This document shows, piece after piece, positions 6,514 through 22,668 of a stretch of DNA of 33,028 bases. A program made the translations under genes and the position numbers. Origin of the DNA: Desulfobulbaceae bacterium (lineage in GTDB: Bacteria > Desulfobacterota > Desulfobulbia > Desulfobulbales > Desulfobulbaceae); contig JAMJFO010000039.1 of NCBI GenBank assembly GCA_023544645.1, positions 1-33,028 of the forward strand, given 5' to 3'. Under the pieces are notes generated by a model. The model saw only the letters and a list, made by a program, of their open reading frames with translations. It made no database searches and was not told the DNA's origin. Each line of letters starts with the position of its first letter. Positions within the stretch are counted from its first letter, which is position 1.

Positions 6514-6565
6514 TCGGTTAACATTGCCGGCGCAAGATTACTGGAGGTGCATTATTAACAATAAA

Positions 6566-7123
6566 ATGAATGCATTTGAAGGGCAACCGGCAGTTCCTTT
6601 CAACCTGGTGGATAGCGAGGGAAAAACACATAGCCTTGAAGACTATAAAGGCTGTTGGCTGCTTATGGTTTTTCATCGCCACCTTGGCTGACTCCCCTGC
6701 CGGGCTCACCTCTCGCAGTTGCGGGAGAAAGAAGAACTCTTCAGCAAACTGAACGTTCAGATAGCAGTGGTGACCTTTGAAGCAGACTATCTTGCGCAAC
6801 AGTATGCGCGGGAGACCGGGATTGCCTGGCCCCTGCTCATGGACGAAAAAAGAGAATTGTACCGGAATTATGGAATTCTTGAAGCATCATTCCTGGACAT
6901 ATGGGGACCCGGAACCTGGTGGGTTTATCTGAAAGAGCTCCTTGCCGGTCATCTGCCGAAAAAAACAACAGGCGATATTTCACAACGAGGTGGGGACATT
7001 CCGATTGATCCCAATGGTATTGTCCGCCTGCATCATGTGGGTTCCGGCCCTGCGGACCGCCCTTCAATTGAATCTCTTCTGCAGGTCATAGTTCAGTGCA
7101 ACAAGACCATCAACCAACGTTGA
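6566..7123 (+). CDS. Peroxiredoxin-like selenoprotein (in-frame UGA = Sec42)
   Basis: An ordinary ORF search breaks this gene at the TGA at 6689-6691. Reading that codon as selenocysteine gives one continuous 185-residue protein of the AhpC/TSA-like (Prx-like) thioredoxin fold. The active site is a UxxC motif: Sec42-Leu-Pro-Cys45 within RHLGULPCRAHL, where Cys homologues have CxxC. The N-terminal region (PAVPFNLVDSEGK) is typical of redoxin domains, and the downstream part (VVTFE...LLMDEKRELY) continues the same fold. A stem-loop compatible with a bacterial SECIS follows the UGA. The start is uncertain: GGAGG at 6543-6547 is 18 bases from the chosen ATG. A thiol- or metalloid-linked peroxidase/reductase role is inferred. 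The gene is 52 bp downstream of the ATPase gene and may share its transcript. Confidence 0.88.
6689..6727 (+). promoter_or_regulatory. UGA Sec codon and SECIS-like hairpin of the Prx-like gene
   Basis: After the UGA (6689-6691), CTCCC (6692-6696) pairs with GGGAG (6723-6727) and CTGC (6697-6700) with GCAG (6715-6718). The 14-base apical loop contains GGGCT, and TTGC is bulged on the 3' side. G-rich loop and bulge resemble bacterial SelB-binding SECIS elements. Structure inferred by eye. Confidence 0.6.
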
Positions 7124-7226: not shown

Positions 7227-7264
7227 TTGACAGAAACAAACAAGTATATAAACATACATTTATA
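7227..7264 (+). promoter_or_regulatory. Promoter and palindromic operator for the ArsR/selenoprotein genes
   Basis: A perfect -35 hexamer TTGACA (7227-7232) is followed by an AT-rich -10 region. Overlapping that region is TATAAA-N6-TTTATA (7247-7264), a perfect 6-bp palindrome with spacer CATACA, extended by GTATA/TATAC outer matches at 7244-7265. ArsR/SmtB repressors bind AT-rich palindromes of this kind across promoters. The ArsR gene starts about 95 bases downstream, so autoregulation is likely. The exact -10 is uncertain because the spacing to TATAAA is only 14 bp. Confidence 0.6.
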
Positions 7265-7358
7265 CGATGTGCTCATTCACCCTGGTTCTGTTCTGAAAGA
7301 GCGCTGAAAATCAAACGCCATGAGATAACAGTTGAAAGAACCCCTGACCACCGGAACG

Positions 7359-7664
7359 ATGCAGTCCGTGAATCTCCAGGCAACCGCCTTCCTGGCCAAA
7401 GCCCTGGCCGATGAAAATCGGCTGCGAATTATTCAAAATCTTGCGCAAGGGAAAAAATCGGTCTCCCGGATTGTGGAAGAGCTTGGCATTTCCCAACCCC
7501 TTGCCTCGCATCACCTCAAAGAGCTCAAGCGCGCGCTCCTGGTGACCGTAGAGCGGAGCGGCCCCTTTATTTACTATGAACTCGCGGATCCCTGCATCAT
7601 GACAATCCTGACTGACTTAAACAATCTGGCAGCGAGCCTGCTGGCTGATCGAACAAAATTCTAA
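7359..7664 (+). CDS. ArsR/SmtB-family winged-helix repressor
   Basis: A 101-residue ArsR-type regulator. The pattern ALADENRLRIIQNL...KSVSRIVEELGISQPLASHHLKELKRALLV, then a wing ending in YYEL, is the classic ArsR fold. Unlike arsenic or cadmium sensors of this family there is no CxC or ELCVCDL motif in the recognition-helix region. The only Cys lies near the C-terminus (DPCIM), so a different sensing site, or a non-metal effector, is likely. An in-frame TTG at 7332 would add nine residues; I chose the ATG because the extra residues are not family-like, although neither has a good ribosome binding site. A palindromic operator lies just upstream. The gene is 18 bp before the Sec59 selenoprotein gene, with which it is surely co-transcribed. 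Confidence 0.85.
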   Translation: MQSVNLQATAFLAKALADENRLRIIQNLAQGKKSVSRIVEELGISQPLASHHLKELKRALLVTVERSGPFIYYELADPCIMTILTDLNNLAASLLADRTKF

Positions 7665-7682: not shown

Positions 7683-8132
7683 ATGAAGGAATTATCACAT
7701 ATTCTGGATGTTCTGGAACCTGCCGAGGCACTGGCGGCCATAACTCCGGAACTCAAGAAAATCCTTGCCCATCTGGACGATGAGGCCAGAGTCGCTTTTG
7801 TCACCGGCTTGATCAATGAACCCGGCGACGATAAGATTTCCAGTATGGTGGATCTCTGACTTGCGGAATGTATGGGCGAAGGTGTCGATCCCACAAAAAT
7901 GTGTCAAACTCTTGTAGATAAGGTGGCCCAATCAAAACAGTTAAAGGCTATCACGGAACCGGAGATCCTGGTTCTTTTTGAAAGCTGGCTGGATGAACTG
8001 GAAGAGGAAGTGACTTCATATATTCGGAAGCACTCGGATGCAGATCCTCTTTTTCTTGCGGAAAAATTGGGCTTATCTGAAAGCGGGGCGGTCTTCCTGG
8101 TTACAAAACTGAAAAACGAAAATAAAATCTGA
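7683..8132 (+). CDS. Unrecognised small selenoprotein (in-frame UGA = Sec59, U-x3-C motif)
   Basis: Two abutting open frames in the same reading frame are separated only by the TGA at 7857-7859. Read as selenocysteine, they make one 149-residue protein starting at ATG 7683, with GAGGG just upstream. The sequence is mostly helical. Around the codon it reads MVDLULAECMGEG, giving Sec59-x3-Cys63, with another Cys at 74. Residues about 118-149 (PLFLAEKLGLSESGAVFLVTKLKNENKI) look like a winged-helix or HTH-like segment. I recognise no family. A very good SECIS-like hairpin begins just after the UGA. The gene lies between ArsR and a thioredoxin-fold selenoprotein, suggesting a metal(loid)- or redox-sensing or -handling role. 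The alternative, two tiny separate peptides, is much less likely because the second would have no ribosome binding site. Confidence 0.82.
7857..7893 (+). promoter_or_regulatory. UGA Sec codon and SECIS-like hairpin of the Sec59 gene
   Basis: TGGG (7873-7876) pairs with CCCA (7890-7893) and CGA (7877-7879) with TCG (7885-7887). The apical loop is AGGTG and AT (7888-7889) is bulged. Loop GGU, a bulged U and a distance of about 21 bases from the UGA closely match the E. coli fdhF-type SECIS layout. Confidence 0.78.
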
Positions 8133-8135
8133 CAA

Positions 8136-8164
8136 ACACATTCCGCCCAAAAGGCGGAATGTGT
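8136..8164 (+). terminator. Terminator-like hairpin after the Sec59 gene
   Basis: A perfect 12-bp stem (ACACATTCCGCC with GGCGGAATGTGT) with loop CAAAA starts 3 bases after the stop codon. Only CTT follows rather than a long T run, so it may act as a weak terminator, attenuator or mRNA end-protecting element between the repressor pair and the genes downstream. Confidence 0.6.
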
Positions 8165-8284: not shown

Positions 8285-8545
8285 ATGACCACCATACGAT
8301 TTTTTCTCAACGACCCCCAGGGGAAAACCTGAAGCCATTTCGAGGAAATGGTGCCCAGGTTGGGTGAACAGTTCGACATCGAGGTTGAAGTTGTTTCAAA
8401 ACCTCGTCAGGAATACCAGACTGATGCCTACACGCGGTCCGGTCTTCCCAAGGCTCCCGCGATCATGGTTGACAACAGCGTCATTGTCGCCGGTGGGGAT
8501 ATTGACGAAACAAACCTTATCCGCGCAATACAGGAACACCTGTAA
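8285..8545 (+). CDS. Small thioredoxin-fold selenoprotein (in-frame UGA = Sec16)
   Basis: TGA at 8330-8332 interrupts an 86-residue frame that starts at ATG 8285 with an excellent AGGAGG six bases upstream. The start codon and ribosome binding site lie before the UGA and the conserved-looking part lies after it, which argues for read-through. The protein has the beta-alpha-beta outline of a mini-thioredoxin/glutaredoxin: TIRFFLND at the N-terminus, the active-site position TUSHF, then a beta strand (DIEVEVVS), a cis-Pro-like segment GLPKAPAIMVDN and VIVAGGDID. There is no second Cys near Sec16, so it would be a mono-selenol enzyme or carrier. It resembles the small Trx-like proteins associated with metal resistance genes. 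It ends 27 bp before the RND exporter gene. Confidence 0.83.
8330..8364 (+). promoter_or_regulatory. UGA Sec codon and SECIS candidates of the Sec16 gene
   Basis: Two stems are possible after the UGA: CCATTT (8335-8340) with AAATGG (8346-8351) around loop CGAGG, and CCCA (8354-8357) with TGGG (8361-8364) around loop GGT. The first is stable but close to the codon; the second has the GGU loop at a more usual distance. I cannot tell which one functions. Confidence 0.5.
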
Positions 8546-8572: not shown

Positions 8573-11185
8573 ATGACCCCCGGCAACAGAATCATCCAAT
8601 TCTCCATCAGCAAGCCCAGGCTGATTACCGCAACAATGGTGCTGGCAACCGTTATCCTCGGGGCGCTCATGGTCAACGTCCATGTTGACACGGACCCGGA
8701 AAACATGCTTTCCCGGGATGAGGCGGTGCGGATTTTTCACAATCAAATCAAAAAGGAATTCACCCTGTATGACATGGTGGTCCTCGGGGTGGTCAATGAA
8801 AAGAATCCCAACGGCGTGTTCAATGTAGAAACGCTTGCGCGGGTGGCCGAGTTGACCGATTTCGCCGAGACACTGAGCTGGCCCGATCCGGAAGATCCGG
8901 ACAAAATAATCGGCGTGGTCAGGCGGGACATCATCGCGCCCGGCAATGTCGATGACATCCGGCAGGCCGGGCCCGGGCAGGTACGGTTTGAATGGCTGAT
9001 GCCCGAGCCGCCGGCCACACAGGAGGAAGCCCTGGAGATCCGCGACCAGGCCATGGCCAATCCCATGCTGAAAGGCACTCTGGTGTCCGAGGACGGCAGG
9101 GCTTTGGGCCTGTATCTGCCCATTACCCATAAGGATCTGGCCCACAGGATCCAGAAGCAGCTCAAGGAAAAGATCGCCGGCTTTTCCGGCGAGGAAGAAT
9201 ACCACATTACCGGCCTACCGGTGGCCGAGGATACCTTCGGGGTAGAGATGTTTGTCCAGATGGCCGTGTCTGCTCCCCTGTCCATGCTGGCCATTTTCCT
9301 GCTCATGCTGTTTTTTTTCCGGAAGCTTAGCCTGATCATTTCACCGATGATCATTGCCATGGTTTCGGTGATCTGCACCATGGGGCTGCTGATCGGCACC
9401 GGCAACACCGTGCATATCATGAGTTCCATGATTCCCATTTTTCTGATGCCGGTGGCGGTGGTGGACTCCATCCACATCCTGTCGGAATTTCATGACCAGT
9501 ACCAGAAGACCGGGGACCGGCGCCTCACCCTGGAGCATGTCATGGCGCAGCTGTTCAGGCCCATGCTCTACACCTCCCTGACTTCGGCCGCCGGTTTTGC
9601 CTCCCTGGCCCTGACCCCGATTCCGCCGGTCAGGGTTTTCGGCATTTTCGTGGCCTTCGGGATCCTGCTCGCCTGGCTGCTCACCATCACCTTTATTCCC
9701 GCCTTTATAATGATGCTCCAGAAAGAAAGCCTGGCCAGTCTCGGCGGCCGGGTAAAGGGCGGAAGTTCCTTTCTTTCCCGCCACCTGCGCTGGCTGGGCC
9801 GGGTGACCATCAGCCAGGCCAAGCCCATAATCGCCTTGTCCCTGGCAGCGCTGGTGGTGGCAGGGTACGGCATCAGCCGGATCCAGATCAACGATAATCC
9901 GGTCAACTGGTTTGCCCCGAATCATCCCATCCGGGTGGCTGACCGAGTGCTGAACAGTCATTTCGGCGGCACCTACGAGGCTTTCCTGGTGCTGGAAGCC
10001 GTTGATGAGCAGGAAACCGCAGTTGATGCCGCCCAGCTGCTCAAACAGAGCATCTCCGGCCTGAAGCCATCGACCGCGCGCCAGCAAGAGATAAACGCCG
10101 AGGCAATTGGCGACGTTGATAGACAGGCCCCCCTATCGGCTACTCCTGATGAGCTGTTCGCCGCTCTGGAGGAAAAATGGGAGAAGCAGCTCGACATGAG
10201 CTCAAGCGACCAGGGGTATGACCTGTGGTCGAACATGCTCGACGTTCTGGAAACGGTGCGGGGGAGAAAACAGATCTTCAAGCAGCCTGCCCTGCTCAGC
10301 TACATGGAAGGGCTTCAGGAACATCTCCTTACAACCGGCATTGCCGGCAAGAGCAATTCAGTGGTGGATATTGTCAAGAAGGTGCATCAGGAGCTGTATG
10401 AAGGCCGGGAGGAACAGTTCCGGGTGCCCGACACCGCGGCCGGCGTGGCCCAGAGCCTTATCTCCTACCAGAACAGCCACAAGCCGGATGATCTCTTCCA
10501 TTTCGTCACCCCGGATTACCGTAAGGCCAACATCTGGGTGCAGCTGAAAAGCGGTGACAACAAGGACATGGAAGAAGTGGTCCAGGCAGTTGAAGAATAT
10601 TTTATTCAACAACCGCCGCCCATACCGGTCAGCCATAACTGGGCCGGTCTCACCTATCTCAATGTGGTCTGGCAGGACAAAATGGTCAGCGGCATGCTCA
10701 AGGCCTTCATGGGCAGTTTTGCCGTGGTCTTCCTGATGATGACCATGCTGTTCCGCTCGCCGCTGTGGGGGATCATCGCCATGGTACCCCTCACGCTCAC
10801 TATTGCCCTGATCTACGGACTGGTGGGGTTGACGGGCAAGGACTACGACATGCCCATCGCGGTTCTGTCCGCCCTGACCCTGGGGCTGGCGGTGGATTTT
10901 GCCATCCACTTTCTCCAACGCTCCCGCATGGCCTATGACAAGACCGGCAGCTGGCGCGAAGCCGCCAAAATCATGTTTGAGGAACCGGCCCGGGCCATCA
11001 GCCGAAACGTGATCGTTATCGCGGTGGGCTTTACACCGCTCCTGGCCGCGCCACTTCTGACCTACAAGACCGTGGGCTTTTTCCTGGCCGCCATCATGGC
11101 CATTTCCGGCCTGGCGACCATGATCATCATCCCGGCCCTTATCACCCTGCTGGAACCAAGAATGTTTCCAAGGAGAACATTATGA
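8573..11185 (+). CDS. RND-superfamily (MMPL) exporter
   Basis: An 870-residue inner-membrane transporter of the MMPL/HAE-type RND superfamily (COG1033-like). It has the typical duplicated layout: TM1 at about 17-35, a large periplasmic loop to about 220, a cluster of five TM helices at about 225-380, then TM7 near 420, a second periplasmic loop to about 705 and a final cluster of five helices to 860. Acidic residues in the TM4-like segments (VAVVDSIHILSEF and GLAVDFAIHFLQRS) are the expected proton-relay positions. AGAGGA precedes the start. The stop overlaps the next gene as ATGA, so a single transcript is certain. RND proteins of this class with a LolA-like partner often move lipids or hydrophobic molecules; the substrate here is not evident from the sequence. 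Confidence 0.88.
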   Translation: MTPGNRIIQFSISKPRLITATMVLATVILGALMVNVHVDTDPENMLSRDEAVRIFHNQIKKEFTLYDMVVLGVVNEKNPNGVFNVETLARVAELTDFAETLSWPDPEDPDKIIGVVRRDIIAPGNVDDIRQAGPGQVRFEWLMPEPPATQEEALEIRDQAMANPMLKGTLVSEDGRALGLYLPITHKDLAHRIQKQLKEKIAGFSGEEEYHITGLPVAEDTFGVEMFVQMAVSAPLSMLAIFLLMLFFFRKLSLIISPMIIAMVSVICTMGLLIGTGNTVHIMSSMIPIFLMPVAVVDSIHILSEFHDQYQKTGDRRLTLEHVMAQLFRPMLYTSLTSAAGFASLALTPIPPVRVFGIFVAFGILLAWLLTITFIPAFIMMLQKESLASLGGRVKGGSSFLSRHLRWLGRVTISQAKPIIALSLAALVVAGYGISRIQINDNPVNWFAPNHPIRVADRVLNSHFGGTYEAFLVLEAVDEQETAVDAAQLLKQSISGLKPSTARQQEINAEAIGDVDRQAPLSATPDELFAALEEKWEKQLDMSSSDQGYDLWSNMLDVLETVRGRKQIFKQPALLSYMEGLQEHLLTTGIAGKSNSVVDIVKKVHQELYEGREEQFRVPDTAAGVAQSLISYQNSHKPDDLFHFVTPDYRKANIWVQLKSGDNKDMEEVVQAVEEYFIQQPPPIPVSHNWAGLTYLNVVWQDKMVSGMLKAFMGSFAVVFLMMTMLFRSPLWGIIAMVPLTLTIALIYGLVGLTGKDYDMPIAVLSALTLGLAVDFAIHFLQRSRMAYDKTGSWREAAKIMFEEPARAISRNVIVIAVGFTPLLAAPLLTYKTVGFFLAAIMAISGLATMIIIPALITLLEPRMFPRRTL

Positions 11186-11979
11186 AAAAATATATTTTGG
11201 CGCTTGGTTTATTACTGTTCTGCGGCGTCTTAGCCTGGCCTCCCGCAGGAGCGGCCGAAATCCCTGATGTCGAGGAAATCGTTGATCGGGCCAACAGGGT
11301 CGCCTATTACGCCGGCGAGGATTTCCGGGCCTCGGTCAGGATGGTCATCAGCGACGCCCAGGGCCGAACCCGGGAGCGCCAACTGATCATGCTGCGGCGC
11401 GACGTGAACGACGGCGGTGAACAGCAGTTTTACCTCTACTTTGAAAAACCGGCCGATGTCCGCAAAATGGTCTTCATGGTCCATAAATTTCTCGACCGGG
11501 ATGATGACCGCTGGCTCTATCTGCCGGCCCTGGACCTGGTCAAGCGGATCGCCGGCTCGGACAAACGCACCAGCTTTGTCGGCTCCCATTTTGTCTATGA
11601 AGATGTGTCAGGCCGCGGTATTGCTGAGGACAACCATGAACTGGTCGAGGTCACGGACAGCCACTTCATTCTCAAAAACACGCCAAAGGATCCTGACAAT
11701 GTGGAATTTTCCTCTTACACCATGTGGATCGACCGGGAAAACTTTATGCCGGTGAAGGCCGAGTACTATGACAAACAGGACCGGAAATACCGGCTGATGG
11801 AGGCCCTTGAGGTGCGTTCAATCCAGGGACACCCGACAGTGGTCAAATCCCGGGCCTCCGACCTGGCAGGCGGCGGTGAAACCGTCACCGAGTTTAATGA
11901 TATCCGCTATGACCTGGGTCTGGCCGATTCGATCTTCACCGAGCGCTATCTGCGCCGGCCTCCGAGGGAAGTGAGATAA
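11182..11979 (+). CDS. Periplasmic LolA-like (outer-membrane lipoprotein-sorting) protein
   Basis: A 265-residue protein with a cleavable signal peptide (MKKYILALGLLLFCGVLAWPPAGAA) and a LolA/LolB-like fold of the COG2834 type. The segments RERQLIMLRRD, DRWLYLPALDLVKRI and MWIDRENFMPVKAEYYD are characteristic of the LolA_like family. These proteins bind lipid-like ligands in an unclosed beta-barrel and are often encoded beside MMPL-type RND exporters, acting as periplasmic carriers. Its start overlaps the exporter stop by 4 bp and its stop overlaps the next start by 1 bp. The three genes therefore form a tight export module (inner-membrane pump, periplasmic carrier, outer-membrane barrel). 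Confidence 0.82.
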   Translation: MKKYILALGLLLFCGVLAWPPAGAAEIPDVEEIVDRANRVAYYAGEDFRASVRMVISDAQGRTRERQLIMLRRDVNDGGEQQFYLYFEKPADVRKMVFMVHKFLDRDDDRWLYLPALDLVKRIAGSDKRTSFVGSHFVYEDVSGRGIAEDNHELVEVTDSHFILKNTPKDPDNVEFSSYTMWIDRENFMPVKAEYYDKQDRKYRLMEALEVRSIQGHPTVVKSRASDLAGGGETVTEFNDIRYDLGLADSIFTERYLRRPPREVR

Positions 11980-13244
11980 TGAACAGGGTCTTAAAAATCT
12001 TTTTCCTGCTGCCGCTGCTGTTATCCCCTGCCTCGGCTCCGGCATCACCGACAATGGAATGGCTGGCCGATCATGACCTGGAGCTCCATGGATTCCTTGA
12101 TGTCCGGACCGGCGCGCGCCTCCAGGACGACCCGTACGAAAAAGACTTCTCCCTTGCGGAAACCCGGCTGCAACTGGATCTGGACGGGGATGCGGCCCGG
12201 GCAATCTTCAAAATCAAGGCCGACCTGGTGGGAGATGCGGTTGCGGAAGATTTGTCGGCGGAATTGCGGGAGGCAAACCTTCTTTTTTTGCCATTGGATT
12301 TCATGGACGTCAAAATCGGCCGCCAGCCCCTTACCTGGGGCACCGGCGACCTATTGTTCATCAACGATCTTTTTCCCAAGGACTGGGAGTCGTTTTTTAT
12401 CGGCCGGGACAATGAATACCTCAAGGCGCCATCCGACGCGCTCAAGGCAAGCCTGTTTTTCGAACCGGCCAACATCGACCTCGTCTACGTGCCGATATTC
12501 AACAATTCAACCTATATCGACGGCAGCAGGCTCTCCTATTGGAATCCCCTTTTGGCGCGCGTTGCCGGCCGGGACTTCGTCTTTGCCGACCAGGAGCGCA
12601 ACCGGTTTCCGGAAGACAGCGAATTCGCCCTGCGCCTGTACCGGAACTTCCGCGGCATTGAAACCGCTTTCTATGGCTACAGCGGTTTCTGGAAAACACC
12701 GGAAGGTCTTGATCCGGCAACAATGACCCTGACCTATCCGCGCCTGGCCGTTTGGGGTGTCAGCGCCAGGGGCCCGGTCTGGCAGGGGATCGCCAATATC
12801 GAGGCCGGTTATTACGATTCCAGGGAGGACCGCGACGGTGATGACCCTTTTGTGCGCAACAGCGAATGGCGTCTGCTCACCGGGTATGAGCGGGAAGTGG
12901 CGACCGATTTTACCGCCGCCATCCAGTATTATCTCGAATTGATGCAGGATTATGACGCCTATCACCGCACGGCGGGACCCTTCGCCAAAGATGAATTCCG
13001 CCACGTCTTCACCCTGCGGCTGACCAGACTTCTTCTCAATCAGAACCTGCAGCTCTCACTGTTCTCCTATTATTCGCCCTCGGACGATGACGGCCATCTG
13101 CGGCCCAATATCCATTACAAGATAACCGATCAATGGGCCGTGGAAGGAGGAGGCAATATCTTCTTCGGCAGCGCAGACCATACTTTTTTCGGCCAGTTTG
13201 AAAACAACACGAATCTGTACGTGGGGGTGAGAAGAACTTTTTGA
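11979..13244 (+). CDS. Outer-membrane beta-barrel protein of the export module
   Basis: A 421-residue protein with an N-terminal signal peptide (hydrophobic stretch LKIFFLLPLLLSPASAPAS). It contains many alternating hydrophobic/aromatic strands and ends in a C-terminal Phe (GVRRTF), the usual BAM recognition signal. Phrases such as DVKIGRQPLTWGTGD and FINDLFPKDW resemble DUF1302-like or porin-like barrels encoded with RND/LolA pairs. It most likely forms the outer-membrane part of the export module or a partner pore. It overlaps the LolA-like gene by one base. A hairpin follows 16 bases after the stop codon. Family assignment is by architecture, not by motif. Confidence 0.78.
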   Translation: MNRVLKIFFLLPLLLSPASAPASPTMEWLADHDLELHGFLDVRTGARLQDDPYEKDFSLAETRLQLDLDGDAARAIFKIKADLVGDAVAEDLSAELREANLLFLPLDFMDVKIGRQPLTWGTGDLLFINDLFPKDWESFFIGRDNEYLKAPSDALKASLFFEPANIDLVYVPIFNNSTYIDGSRLSYWNPLLARVAGRDFVFADQERNRFPEDSEFALRLYRNFRGIETAFYGYSGFWKTPEGLDPATMTLTYPRLAVWGVSARGPVWQGIANIEAGYYDSREDRDGDDPFVRNSEWRLLTGYEREVATDFTAAIQYYLELMQDYDAYHRTAGPFAKDEFRHVFTLRLTRLLLNQNLQLSLFSYYSPSDDDGHLRPNIHYKITDQWAVEGGGNIFFGSADHTFFGQFENNTNLYVGVRRTF

Positions 13245-13335: not shown

Positions 13336-13656
13336 ATGGGATGGCTTTATGTGATTTCGACAAATGACGCTGAAACCGTGTACAATGCGGTGCGGCTGGC
13401 CAATGTCAGCCTGAAGAAAGAGAAGGAGGTGACCCTGTTCATGCTCGGCAGGGGGGTCGAGTTCAACGAGATATCAACCGAGGATTTTAACGTCAACAGC
13501 CAGATCGATGAATTCTACGAGGCCGGCGGCGAACTCATTGTCTGAGGCGTGTGCCTCAAATCCCGTGGTCAAACGGGATCCTCTTCCTGTCCGATGGGCT
13601 TCATGACCGATCTGTACGAATTGATCGAAGAAAGCGAAAAAGTTCTTACGTTTTAG
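13336..13656 (+). CDS. DsrE-like selenoprotein (in-frame UGA = Sec70)
   Basis: TGA at 13543-13545 falls inside a 106-residue DsrE-family protein that continues in frame to TAG at 13654-13656. The N-terminal half (WLYVISTNDAETVYNAVRLAN...KKEKEVTLFMLGRGVEF) is the DsrE/DsrF-like sulfur-relay fold. The region GGELIVUGVCLKSRG holds Sec70-x2-Cys73, where Cys homologues have CGxC; Cys85 lies further on. DsrE-like selenoproteins are a known class in deltaproteobacteria. These proteins carry persulfide or related chalcogen/metalloid groups in the cytoplasm. GGGAGG at 13324-13329 supports the start. A textbook SECIS-like hairpin follows the UGA. The gene stands between the export module and an SQR-family flavoprotein, which fits reactive sulfur or selenium chemistry. 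Confidence 0.92.
13543..13578 (+). promoter_or_regulatory. UGA Sec codon and SECIS hairpin of the DsrE-like gene
   Basis: Fifteen bases after the UGA, TCCCGT (13561-13566) pairs perfectly with ACGGGA (13573-13578) around the loop GGTCAA. A 6-bp stem with loop GGU about 21 bases downstream is exactly the bacterial SECIS pattern. Confidence 0.85.
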
Positions 13657-20755: not shown

Positions 20756-21529
20756 TCAAATCATTGCAACGGCTAACTTCCGGGTGAGAAAAATAATCGC
20801 GACAACAAGTATGGTACCGAGAATTTTTTGCATAGTCTGTGGCTCGAAACGTCCGGCGCCCAGTATTGAACCGGCCATGCCACCCACAACAGCTCCGATG
20901 ATCAGAGGCATATAAACAGCCAGGTCTATACTGTGGTATTGCAGACGAGCGGCAAGTCCGGCCACAGAATTCGCCCAGATGAAAAAAGCGCCACAGGCGG
21001 CTGCTTCTTTGGCAGAACCCAGGCCCAGAATGATTATGAGCGGCACCAGGTACACACCACCGCCAATGCCGGCAATACCTGCCACGAGCCCGAGTATGGC
21101 TCCACTGACAATAGCCAGGATAAATTTTCCCCGGTCACTGAGGGCCAGCGGCTTCGTTTTGCCCGGAAAATAAATGCGAAGAGCGGCAAAGGCCAATGAA
21201 ACAAGGAGCACAAGATAAAACAGAGTCTTGGGCAGGTGAAGCATGCCGCCCACATAGGACATGGGGATAGATGAAATGAGAAATGGAGCAATCAATCTAA
21301 GCCGGCCATGGCGGTGGAGCAGAAAAACTATGCTGCCGATGGTTGTTACCAGTACATTCAAGGTCAGCGACACCATAGGTATGACCGCGGTACCTGCACC
21401 GAATATGGCCAAAAGAGCTGTATAGGAGGAACCGCCTCCCAAGCCGACCGATGCATAAAAGAACGCTACCAGGGCAAAGATGACGGCAAGAAGAGATAGA
21501 GGAATGGCAAGCTCAGTCATGGTTGTCAC
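20756..21529 (-). CDS. TauE/SafE-family anion permease
   Basis: A 257-residue integral membrane protein with about eight hydrophobic segments and the family's glycine-rich repeats: ASVGLGGGSSYTALLAI near the N-terminus and GIAGIGGGVYLVPLIIILGLGSAKEAAA in the middle. TauE/SafE proteins export sulfite, sulfoacetate or related anions, or import small sulfur compounds. The start codon overlaps the moaA stop (ATGA), so it is translated with moaA. Its place in a molybdoenzyme/arsenic series suggests transport of an oxyanion or sulfur compound, for example molybdate-, arsenic- or sulfur-related, but the substrate cannot be read from the sequence. Confidence 0.85.
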   Translation of the reverse strand: MTTMTELAIPLSLLAVIFALVAFFYASVGLGGGSSYTALLAIFGAGTAVIPMVSLTLNVLVTTIGSIVFLLHRHGRLRLIAPFLISSIPMSYVGGMLHLPKTLFYLVLLVSLAFAALRIYFPGKTKPLALSDRGKFILAIVSGAILGLVAGIAGIGGGVYLVPLIIILGLGSAKEAAACGAFFIWANSVAGLAARLQYHSIDLAVYMPLIIGAVVGGMAGSILGAGRFEPQTMQKILGTILVVAIIFLTRKLAVAMI

Positions 21530-22557
21530 CCTCCGATATCAGCCATGGAAGGCTCGGTTGACCGGTTTGAAAATCTTTCGGCTTCATGTCCGTTGACAAA
21601 TCGGCTCCGGATACAGTCAACAATCGCCTCGCTGATTTCCCGGTCGGCAGCGCCGGTGCGGAGCAGTTCCTTCAAATCAAGGGCGCCGCTGTCGTAGAGA
21701 CATGTCTTCAGCATTCCGGCAGGTGTAATGCGCACCTTGTTGCAGGTGCCGCAGAACTGCCTGGAATAGCCCTGAATAAGTCCCAGCCTGCCCATGTATC
21801 CCGGATGGGTAAAAACACGGGCGGTCGTCGGCGCTGCGGCTTCAGCCTCTTCCAGCTCCGGAAAGATTCGATGCAGGCGGGAAACAAGGTTGCCGTTGTT
21901 GATTTTCCCTGATCGTTTGGCGCCGGAAAACGGCATAGCTTCTATGAACCGCAGGGTGACCGGGTACTGCTTTGCCAGAGCGGCCAGCCTGGTTATTTCA
22001 TCGTCACTGGTATCCTCGAGGACCACGCTGTTAATTTTAAGCGGTATTTCCCGGGACAGGGAACCGTGCAGCGTCTGCAGGACGGAATCAAGGTAGTCAC
22101 GCCGGGTGATTCGCGAAAACCGCTCAGGATCAAGGGTGTCAAGGCTCAGATTCACACCGTCAATACGGATATTCTTTAATTCATCAAGAAACCGGAAGGT
22201 CTTGACACCGTTTGTGGTGATATGCAGGGTGCGAAGACCGTTAACCTGCCGCAACTTTGTCAGAAAAGAAATGCAGCCGCGCCGGGAAAAAGGTTCTCCT
22301 CCGGTCACCCGTACCTTCGTGATACCCAGATTGCAGAACAGGGTGACAAGACGTTCAAGCTCCTCCAGCGAAAGTATCTCTTCATGCGGAATAAAGGGAA
22401 CGCCATTCTCCGGGCGGCAGTACCGGCAACGCAGATTACACCGGTCGGTGATGGCAAGCCGGAGATAGGTGATCCGCCGGCCATGATTATCCAGCAGGAT
22501 AGACGGCCGACCTGAGTGATTGGATGACGCGGGAATATCGTTATGAACGTGGCGCAT
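21526..22557 (-). CDS. moaA: GTP 3',8-cyclase MoaA
   Basis: A 343-residue radical SAM enzyme that starts molybdopterin synthesis by cyclising GTP. The N-terminal cluster motif is Cys40-x3-Cys44-x2-Cys47 (TDRCNLRCRYCRP), followed by VRVTGGEPFSRRG, a SAM-binding motif. The C-terminal cluster Cys residues are in FCGTCNKVRITPAGMLKTCLYD. The protein ends in the GG dipeptide essential in MoaA. AAGGAG precedes the start, and the stop overlaps the permease gene. About 110 bp separate it from tatA upstream. Confidence 0.95.
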   Translation of the reverse strand: MRHVHNDIPASSNHSGRPSILLDNHGRRITYLRLAITDRCNLRCRYCRPENGVPFIPHEEILSLEELERLVTLFCNLGITKVRVTGGEPFSRRGCISFLTKLRQVNGLRTLHITTNGVKTFRFLDELKNIRIDGVNLSLDTLDPERFSRITRRDYLDSVLQTLHGSLSREIPLKINSVVLEDTSDDEITRLAALAKQYPVTLRFIEAMPFSGAKRSGKINNGNLVSRLHRIFPELEEAEAAAPTTARVFTHPGYMGRLGLIQGYSRQFCGTCNKVRITPAGMLKTCLYDSGALDLKELLRTGAADREISEAIVDCIRSRFVNGHEAERFSNRSTEPSMADIGG

Positions 22558-22668
22558 GGTATCTCCTTTCCAAGTACGGGAGGCAAAGCCGTTTCCAGCT
22601 CAACCCTGTTCGGCCTCAAACCATATCCCGCCGGACTCAGGTTTTTTGGCTCGGAGTATTACTATCGG

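Follow-up and report, generated by a model that had tools for sequence, protein, structure and literature searches.

A TsoA-family selenoprotein beside an ArsR-type regulator in a Desulfobulbaceae bacterium: selenocysteine decoding, a probable operator and a possible sensing role

Introduction

The window analyzed in our study, a stretch of 33,028 nucleotides from a Desulfobulbaceae bacterium, contains a gene whose reading frame crosses a UGA codon shortly downstream of an ArsR-type regulator. The question raised by this locus is whether the codon is a stop or is translated as selenocysteine, to which family the resulting protein belongs, and what such a protein might do next to a transcription factor. 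An earlier note on this DNA had presented the gene as a candidate new selenoprotein family with a U-x3-C motif. Our results uphold the selenoprotein and its motif and assign the gene to a family that is already catalogued. Taken as a whole, a reading in which a selenocysteine-decoded tsoA belongs to a TsoR-TsoA-TsoC locus, TsoR represses at 7246-7265, and TsoA acts as the ligand-sensing partner has, in our judgment, an even chance of being correct.

The gene is a member of the TsoA family

The gene and the codon in question are the following:

7683-8132, forward strand: tsoA, a selenoprotein gene with Sec59-x3-Cys63, identified from its read-through frame, NF045695 and its homologues
7857-7859, forward strand: UGA codon, almost certainly read as selenocysteine (Sec59), with TGA at this column in 109/109 core homologues

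The frame is continuous, as had been noted earlier, and 7683-8132 is open apart from UGA 7857-7859; its read-through product of 149 residues carries Sec59 and Cys63 (U-x3-C) within the sequence LULAEC (residues 58-63), in which the LULAxC family motif is present. This is the single occurrence of TsoA in its genome. Against the NCBIfam model NF045695, named "LULAXC motif selenoprotein TsoA", the protein scores 211.5 bits (cutoff 170) over residues 5-146 of 149. In the passages of a 2026 review that deal with these proteins (PMC13188914), TsoA, TsoB, TsoC, TsoX and TsoY are listed with credit to Haft & Tolstoy 2025, and Tso is given as three selenoprotein operon. The product of 7683-8132 is a member of this catalogued family, reported in 2025, and the family cannot be called new, as others had described it before: NF045695 (TsoA) and NF045707 (TsoR) already cover both genes, and together with the review they rule that reading out. 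A Pfam search returned nothing meaningful for the 149-residue protein, and a PDB sequence search with the single TsoA sequence gave no match; when the PDB was searched with the TsoA A1 profile, only weak HTH matches and one designed repeat protein were obtained.

The UGA codon and the hairpin that follows it

TsoA homologues were searched for in a phylum-wide sample of 395 genomes, and matches far above chance were found in 46 of them (45 besides the genome studied here), nearly all reading through one TGA; a scan of GTDB species genomes contributed 80 further tsoA loci. The distribution of the family is patchy even inside a genus, since a family-profile search detected it in 23 of 57 relatives. 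The residue aligned with Sec59 is a stop in 122 of 131 homologous stretches. Among the 109 core members, a set restricted to proteins with one TGA wherever that TGA might lie, the Sec59 codon is TGA in 109/109 and the residue at +4 is Cys in 109/109. The invariant columns of the 70-row TsoA alignment are V56, Sec59, C63, G67, P70, F99 and W102, with C74 nearly invariant. The earlier note had looked to homologues with Cys or Sec aligned to position 59: aligned Sec was indeed found, but the hoped-for Cys form did not appear among the homologues examined, and the family is almost uniformly Sec. One tsoA copy (L062, 2446 region) has AGA (Arg) as its Sec codon with the hairpin intact; the same metagenome assembly has a TGA copy (L086), and the AGA version may reflect an error or gene decay.

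Purifying selection is stronger on the downstream half of tsoA than on the upstream half, as the median dN/dS (Nei-Gojobori) is 0.39 upstream of the UGA vs 0.23 downstream; the latter value indicates that the downstream half is coding and constrained. Two contrary outcomes had been foreseen, namely that homologues would all end at the UGA or that the downstream half would be unconserved, and neither occurred: the aligned stop is read through to an invariant Cys63, and the second half is the more constrained.

The codon is followed by this element:

7874-7891, forward strand: SECIS-like hairpin supported by covariation, with a stem of 7874-7879 paired with 7885-7887 and 7889-7891, a loop at 7880-7884 (AGGUG) and a bulged A at 7888

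The hairpin thus sits 17-34 nt past the UGA; with the U of UGA numbered 0, the stem joins 17-22 to 28-30 and 32-34, the loop spans 23-27, and the bulged A is at 31. The folding energy of the single sequence around the UGA is not unusual (z = 0.29), and covariation was therefore used, so that the evidence for the hairpin is comparative and not energetic. In a 32-row alignment, 98.4% of the cells pair (columns 18-23 with 29-35, taking the U of UGA as 1), and three pairs and 20 cells have changed on both sides. This covariation score was reached by none of 500 shuffles and was destroyed when the partner strand was slid. For the pair 19-32, the distinct core rows include 52 G-C, 14 A-U, 3 G-U and 0 mismatches (Fisher P 4e-12, a value that ignores shared descent). 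The wobble bases of the hairpin codons are fixed (GAA in 92/92, GGT in 90/92 and GTC in 91/92 distinct rows), whereas those of the flanking codons vary. Distant members (L122, L124 and L125) present a different stem in the same place, made of GGAUUC/GAAUCC or a close variant, and their loop contains GGU or GGG. These comparisons indicate that the hairpin after the UGA is real. Its earlier description stands as regards the hairpin itself and the GGU in its loop (7881-7883); the bulged U placed at the canonical position on the 5' side does not, the sole bulge of the covariation-supported structure being A 7888 on the 3' side.

The genome also encodes SelB (378 bits) and tRNA-Sec (74 bits). On these comparative grounds, UGA 7857-7859 is almost certainly decoded as selenocysteine by SelB and tRNA-Sec, aided by the hairpin at 7874-7891. 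A true stop at UGA 7857, with the second half translated as a separate small protein from ATG 7872, would agree with the ATG that lies five codons past the UGA in 94 of 109 homologues; however, residues 60-63, which separate the UGA from that ATG, are conserved and include the invariant Cys63, the codon is never TAA or TAG, a covarying hairpin comes after it, and the genome decodes Sec, so that this reading has next to no probability and, on the sequence comparisons, is already refuted. Less credible still is a sequencing error at UGA 7857 or a pseudogene. Nothing was found in its favor, and it is already refuted by the recurrence of this codon at the equivalent position across genomes from many families.

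The Tso locus and its neighbors

Downstream of tsoA, two features were identified:

8136-8164, strand not assigned: inverted repeat in the gap from tsoA to tsoC, with perfectly matching 12-bp arms around a 5-nt loop and no T-run after it
8285-8545, forward strand: tsoC, a NEPxGxxU-type selenoprotein gene with the UGA at residue 16, identified by NF045708

TsoC scores 132.3 bits against NF045708 (cutoff 45) and begins about 150 bp past tsoA, the order on one strand being TsoR, TsoA, TsoC. The repeat between the two selenoprotein genes is possibly an attenuator or an mRNA-processing hairpin. No TsoB (NF045694) above the cutoff was found in this genome, which is 99.92% complete (best score 76 bits vs a cutoff of 805). 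Where flanking DNA was taken, TsoC was found downstream in 59 loci, within 800 bases of tsoA in 28/59 and 1.7-2.5 kb away in 31/59; the gap in these 31 loci is room for TsoB. The gene at 7683-8132 is classed as TsoA, and its locus is not classed as a complete three-selenoprotein operon.

Genes for an MMPL/RND-type transporter, a LolA-like protein and a beta-barrel-like protein follow tsoC (8573-13244, forward strand). Only a few other loci have counterparts of the window's MMPL transporter, LolA-like, DUF1302-like and CopA genes close to tsoA, and we therefore left these genes out of the Tso system. At 13336-13656 (forward strand) there is a recoded gene for which no ORF had been listed; it is DsrE-like (Pfam DsrE 36.1 bits, cutoff 22.7), with a UGA at residue 70 (UGVC, U-x2-C). 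Every homologue with more than 50% identity carries the TGA, and there are also versions with Cys. In 27 other loci, a relative is encoded close to tsoA on the same strand; the Sec column holds a stop in 22/27 and Cys in 3/27. DsrE-like selenoproteins are already known.

Two further observations concern other parts of the window. A SelL-related redox selenoprotein gene is present at 6518-7123 (forward strand; NF040769 183 bits, cutoff 120), with its UGA at residue 58 of the frame (GULP); a gene caller would place its start late, at TTG 6719. A Molybdenum cofactor riboswitch (RF01055, 74.6 bits) is located at 22546-22668 on the reverse strand, and the ORF just downstream of it (21526-22557, reverse strand) looks, by its translation, like a MoaA-type radical SAM protein.

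TsoR and its probable operator and promoter

The region upstream of tsoA contains:

7227-7232, forward strand: TTGACA, likely -35 element of the tsoR-tsoA promoter, judged from its sequence and its recurrent spacing to the operator
7246-7265, strand not assigned: ATATAAACATACATTTATAC, probable TsoR operator, a palindrome ATATAAA-N6-TTTATAT with one mismatch, supported by conservation upstream of tsoR
7332-7664, forward strand: tsoR, an ArsR-type transcriptional regulator gene whose start is not fixed (TTG as listed), identified by NF045707 and Pfam HTH_5

TsoR scores 156 bits against NF045707 (cutoff 115) and 84 bits against NF033788 (cutoff 55), and its ArsR-type HTH is recognized by Pfam HTH_5 (48.3 bits). 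Its stop at 7664 is separated by 18 bp from the tsoA ATG at 7683, in agreement with the distance given earlier, and the coupling that had been proposed to an ArsR gene is borne out by the presence of tsoR upstream of tsoA in 105/109 loci. Of 120 TsoR sequences, 46 have no cysteine, and there is no conserved Cys column; consequently, the usual thiolate sensing sites are absent.

The pattern ATATAAA-N6-TTTATAT occurs upstream of tsoR in 44 of 98 distinct regions with at most one mismatch; when up to three mismatches are allowed, the count rises to 58 of 98. The corresponding numbers from 40 rounds of dinucleotide shuffling were 0 and about 3. A pattern with a 5-nt spacer had also been considered and is wrong, the spacer being 6. 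The genome has two sites only with at most one mismatch, one of them 7246-7265. Matches with two mismatches number 14 vs 22 in a reversed control, no more than expected from that control, and a wider TsoR regulon is therefore not claimed. Of 55 operator-bearing loci, 41 have an exact TTGACA nearby, mostly ending 13-16 nt before the operator; here, TTGACA 7227-7232 ends 13 nt before 7246-7265. A sigma-70 scan did not report this candidate promoter, owing to the spacing rule of the scan. Given that the operator comes after TTGACA, binding of a repressor there would mask the -10 region. From the position and conservation of the site, it is likely that TsoR binds the palindrome at 7246-7265, through which it probably controls the tsoR-tsoA operon.

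The C-terminal domain of TsoA

7965-8129, forward strand: predicted C-terminal winged-helix-like domain of TsoA (residues 95-149) with a reduced wing, supported by AlphaFold, VIA-align and Pfam HTH_24 in homologues

AlphaFold, run with the 70-row alignment, predicts an all-helical TsoA (pLDDT 82, pTM 0.42), with pLDDT 91-94 for residues 101-149. Sec59 and Cys63 are placed one turn apart in a helix of residues 51-65, the pLDDT of the Sec region being only about 70, and Cys74 is near both in sequence. In Foldseek, the C-terminus resembles the winged-helix domains of Lrp/AsnC, DeoR and Z-alpha (probability about 1.0, E 0.17 at best). The VIA-align rows consist almost entirely of HTH or winged-helix domains, at Z 6-8 and with rmsd values of mostly 1-2 across 45-58 residues; such Z values are common for small helical domains. 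The TsoA of 7683-8132 itself has no winged-helix profile match above the Pfam cutoff; two homologues exceed the HTH_24 cutoff of 21.9 by sequence (L121 with 34.7 bits and L111 with 23.4 bits), and these matches favor an HTH assignment for the family. The last approximately 50 residues of TsoA are thus predicted to form a winged-helix-like HTH.

The places through which an HTH normally contacts DNA are taken in TsoA by Gly135, Phe138 and Leu139, which hardly vary, and the protein has an acidic character (median net charge -11). These two properties make DNA binding by TsoA itself improbable. Neither the NCBIfam models nor the pertinent passages of PMC13188914 mention the HTH-like C-terminus, the operator or the RNA covariation, nor the ArsR genes beside relatives without selenocysteine, the lack of a conserved cysteine in TsoR or the lack of TsoB in this genome; Haft & Tolstoy 2025 may report the first three.

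Relatives without selenocysteine

Another set of relatives (L111-L118) matches the second half of TsoA only, with no UGA at the Sec place, and scores 56-60 bits to the TsoA model (three tested). In L116-L118, the stretch before the TsoA-like half is Met-rich and has one Cys; these genes (L116:1349-1765, L117 and L118) each come right after an ArsR-type gene, and their products look like soft-metal-binding proteins. A TsoR-like ArsR-type gene lies upstream on the same strand in L111-L113 and L115-L118, and L114 is without it; the gene adjoins directly in L115-L118, and a TVP38-like gene intervenes in L111-L113. The occurrence of ArsR beside these non-Sec relatives indicates that the pair of ArsR and HTH is older or wider than the selenoprotein.

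Sensing partner or carrier

A sensing or carrier role had been suggested in the earlier note, and we infer the same pair of roles. For the first of them, TsoR, a small ArsR-type repressor, would occupy the palindrome at 7246-7265 over the promoter and hold tsoR-tsoA down; the selenol/thiol site of TsoA would bind a soft ligand, be it sulfane sulfur, selenide, or a soft metal or metalloid; and the ligand-loaded TsoA would alter the grip of TsoR on its operator. The redox work would be done by TsoC, together with TsoB in other genomes. Two considerations lead us to view TsoA as the sensing partner: TsoR has no conserved cysteine while TsoA has Sec59, Cys63 and usually Cys74, and the ArsR and the HTH domain stay together where a Met/Cys-rich stretch replaces the Sec part. 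We hold this role tentatively, at somewhat less than an even chance. Points that weigh against the overall reading are the occurrence of the operator in 58 of 98 loci and not in all, the modest confidence of the model around Sec59, and the joint conservation with TsoB, TsoC and a DsrE-like selenoprotein, which would fit a carrier as well.

The alternative, in our view only slightly less probable, is that TsoA is a redox or sulfur/selenium carrier with a DsrC/TusE-like role. Its HTH-like part would then serve for docking to other proteins, and the part of TsoR would be confined to regulating the operon. Sec59/Cys63 would hold sulfane sulfur or a selenenylsulfide and pass it between the rhodanese domain of TsoB, the thioredoxin-like TsoC and the DsrE-like selenoprotein. 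This alternative accords with the 59 loci with TsoC downstream, 31 of them with a TsoB-sized gap, with the description of TsoB as a rhodanese/DsbD-like fusion in the relevant passages of PMC13188914, with the DsrE-like protein near tsoA on the same strand (of 27, 22 have a stop where Sec aligns and 3 have Cys), and with the invariant hydrophobic residues on the HTH recognition face. However, the pair of ArsR and HTH persists in the non-Sec relatives, TsoB is missing in the genome studied here, and, judged from the AlphaFold model, residues i and i+4 of the predicted helix would be badly placed for a dithiol bond.

The sensing-partner reading can be taken further, to a two-protein ArsR switch in which the TsoA selenol senses the ligand and a cysteine-less TsoR answers at the DNA, with selenium as the sensing atom and an older pair of ArsR and Met/Cys-rich HTH as its origin; in this specific form, we regard it as unlikely.

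It is important to note that the gene at 7683-8132 adds a member to a named family and not a new kind of protein. The locus offers a way into the function of TsoA, as it combines a candidate operator, a presumed repressor without the usual cysteine sensor, and an adjoining selenoprotein with a winged-helix-like domain. Two small proteins and a DNA site of 20 bp would thereby suffice to test directly whether a selenocysteine protein signals to a transcription factor, and the operator and the HTH domain are the parts most worthwhile for further work. In addition, the locus exemplifies a Tso arrangement that lacks TsoB.

Comparison with known systems

With respect to the TsoA family (NF045695), the gene at 7683-8132 shares a whole-length score above the cutoff, the LULAEC motif, Sec encoded by UGA and the adjoining TsoR, and it differs in nothing essential. 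Its locus resembles the Tso three selenoprotein operon in that TsoR, TsoA and TsoC follow one another on a single strand, and it differs from that operon in the absence of a TsoB above the cutoff. Compared with Lrp/AsnC and other winged-helix DNA-binding domains, TsoA has a predicted tri-helical HTH (residues about 95-149), but its wing is short or missing and the face of its recognition helix carries Gly, Phe and Leu instead of polar residues. Finally, while TsoR differs from the ArsR/SmtB metalloregulators and persulfide sensors (SmtB, ArsR, BigR and SqrR) by its lack of conserved cysteine ligands, it shares with them the fold, the family score and, probably, a palindromic operator that overlies the promoter of its own gene.
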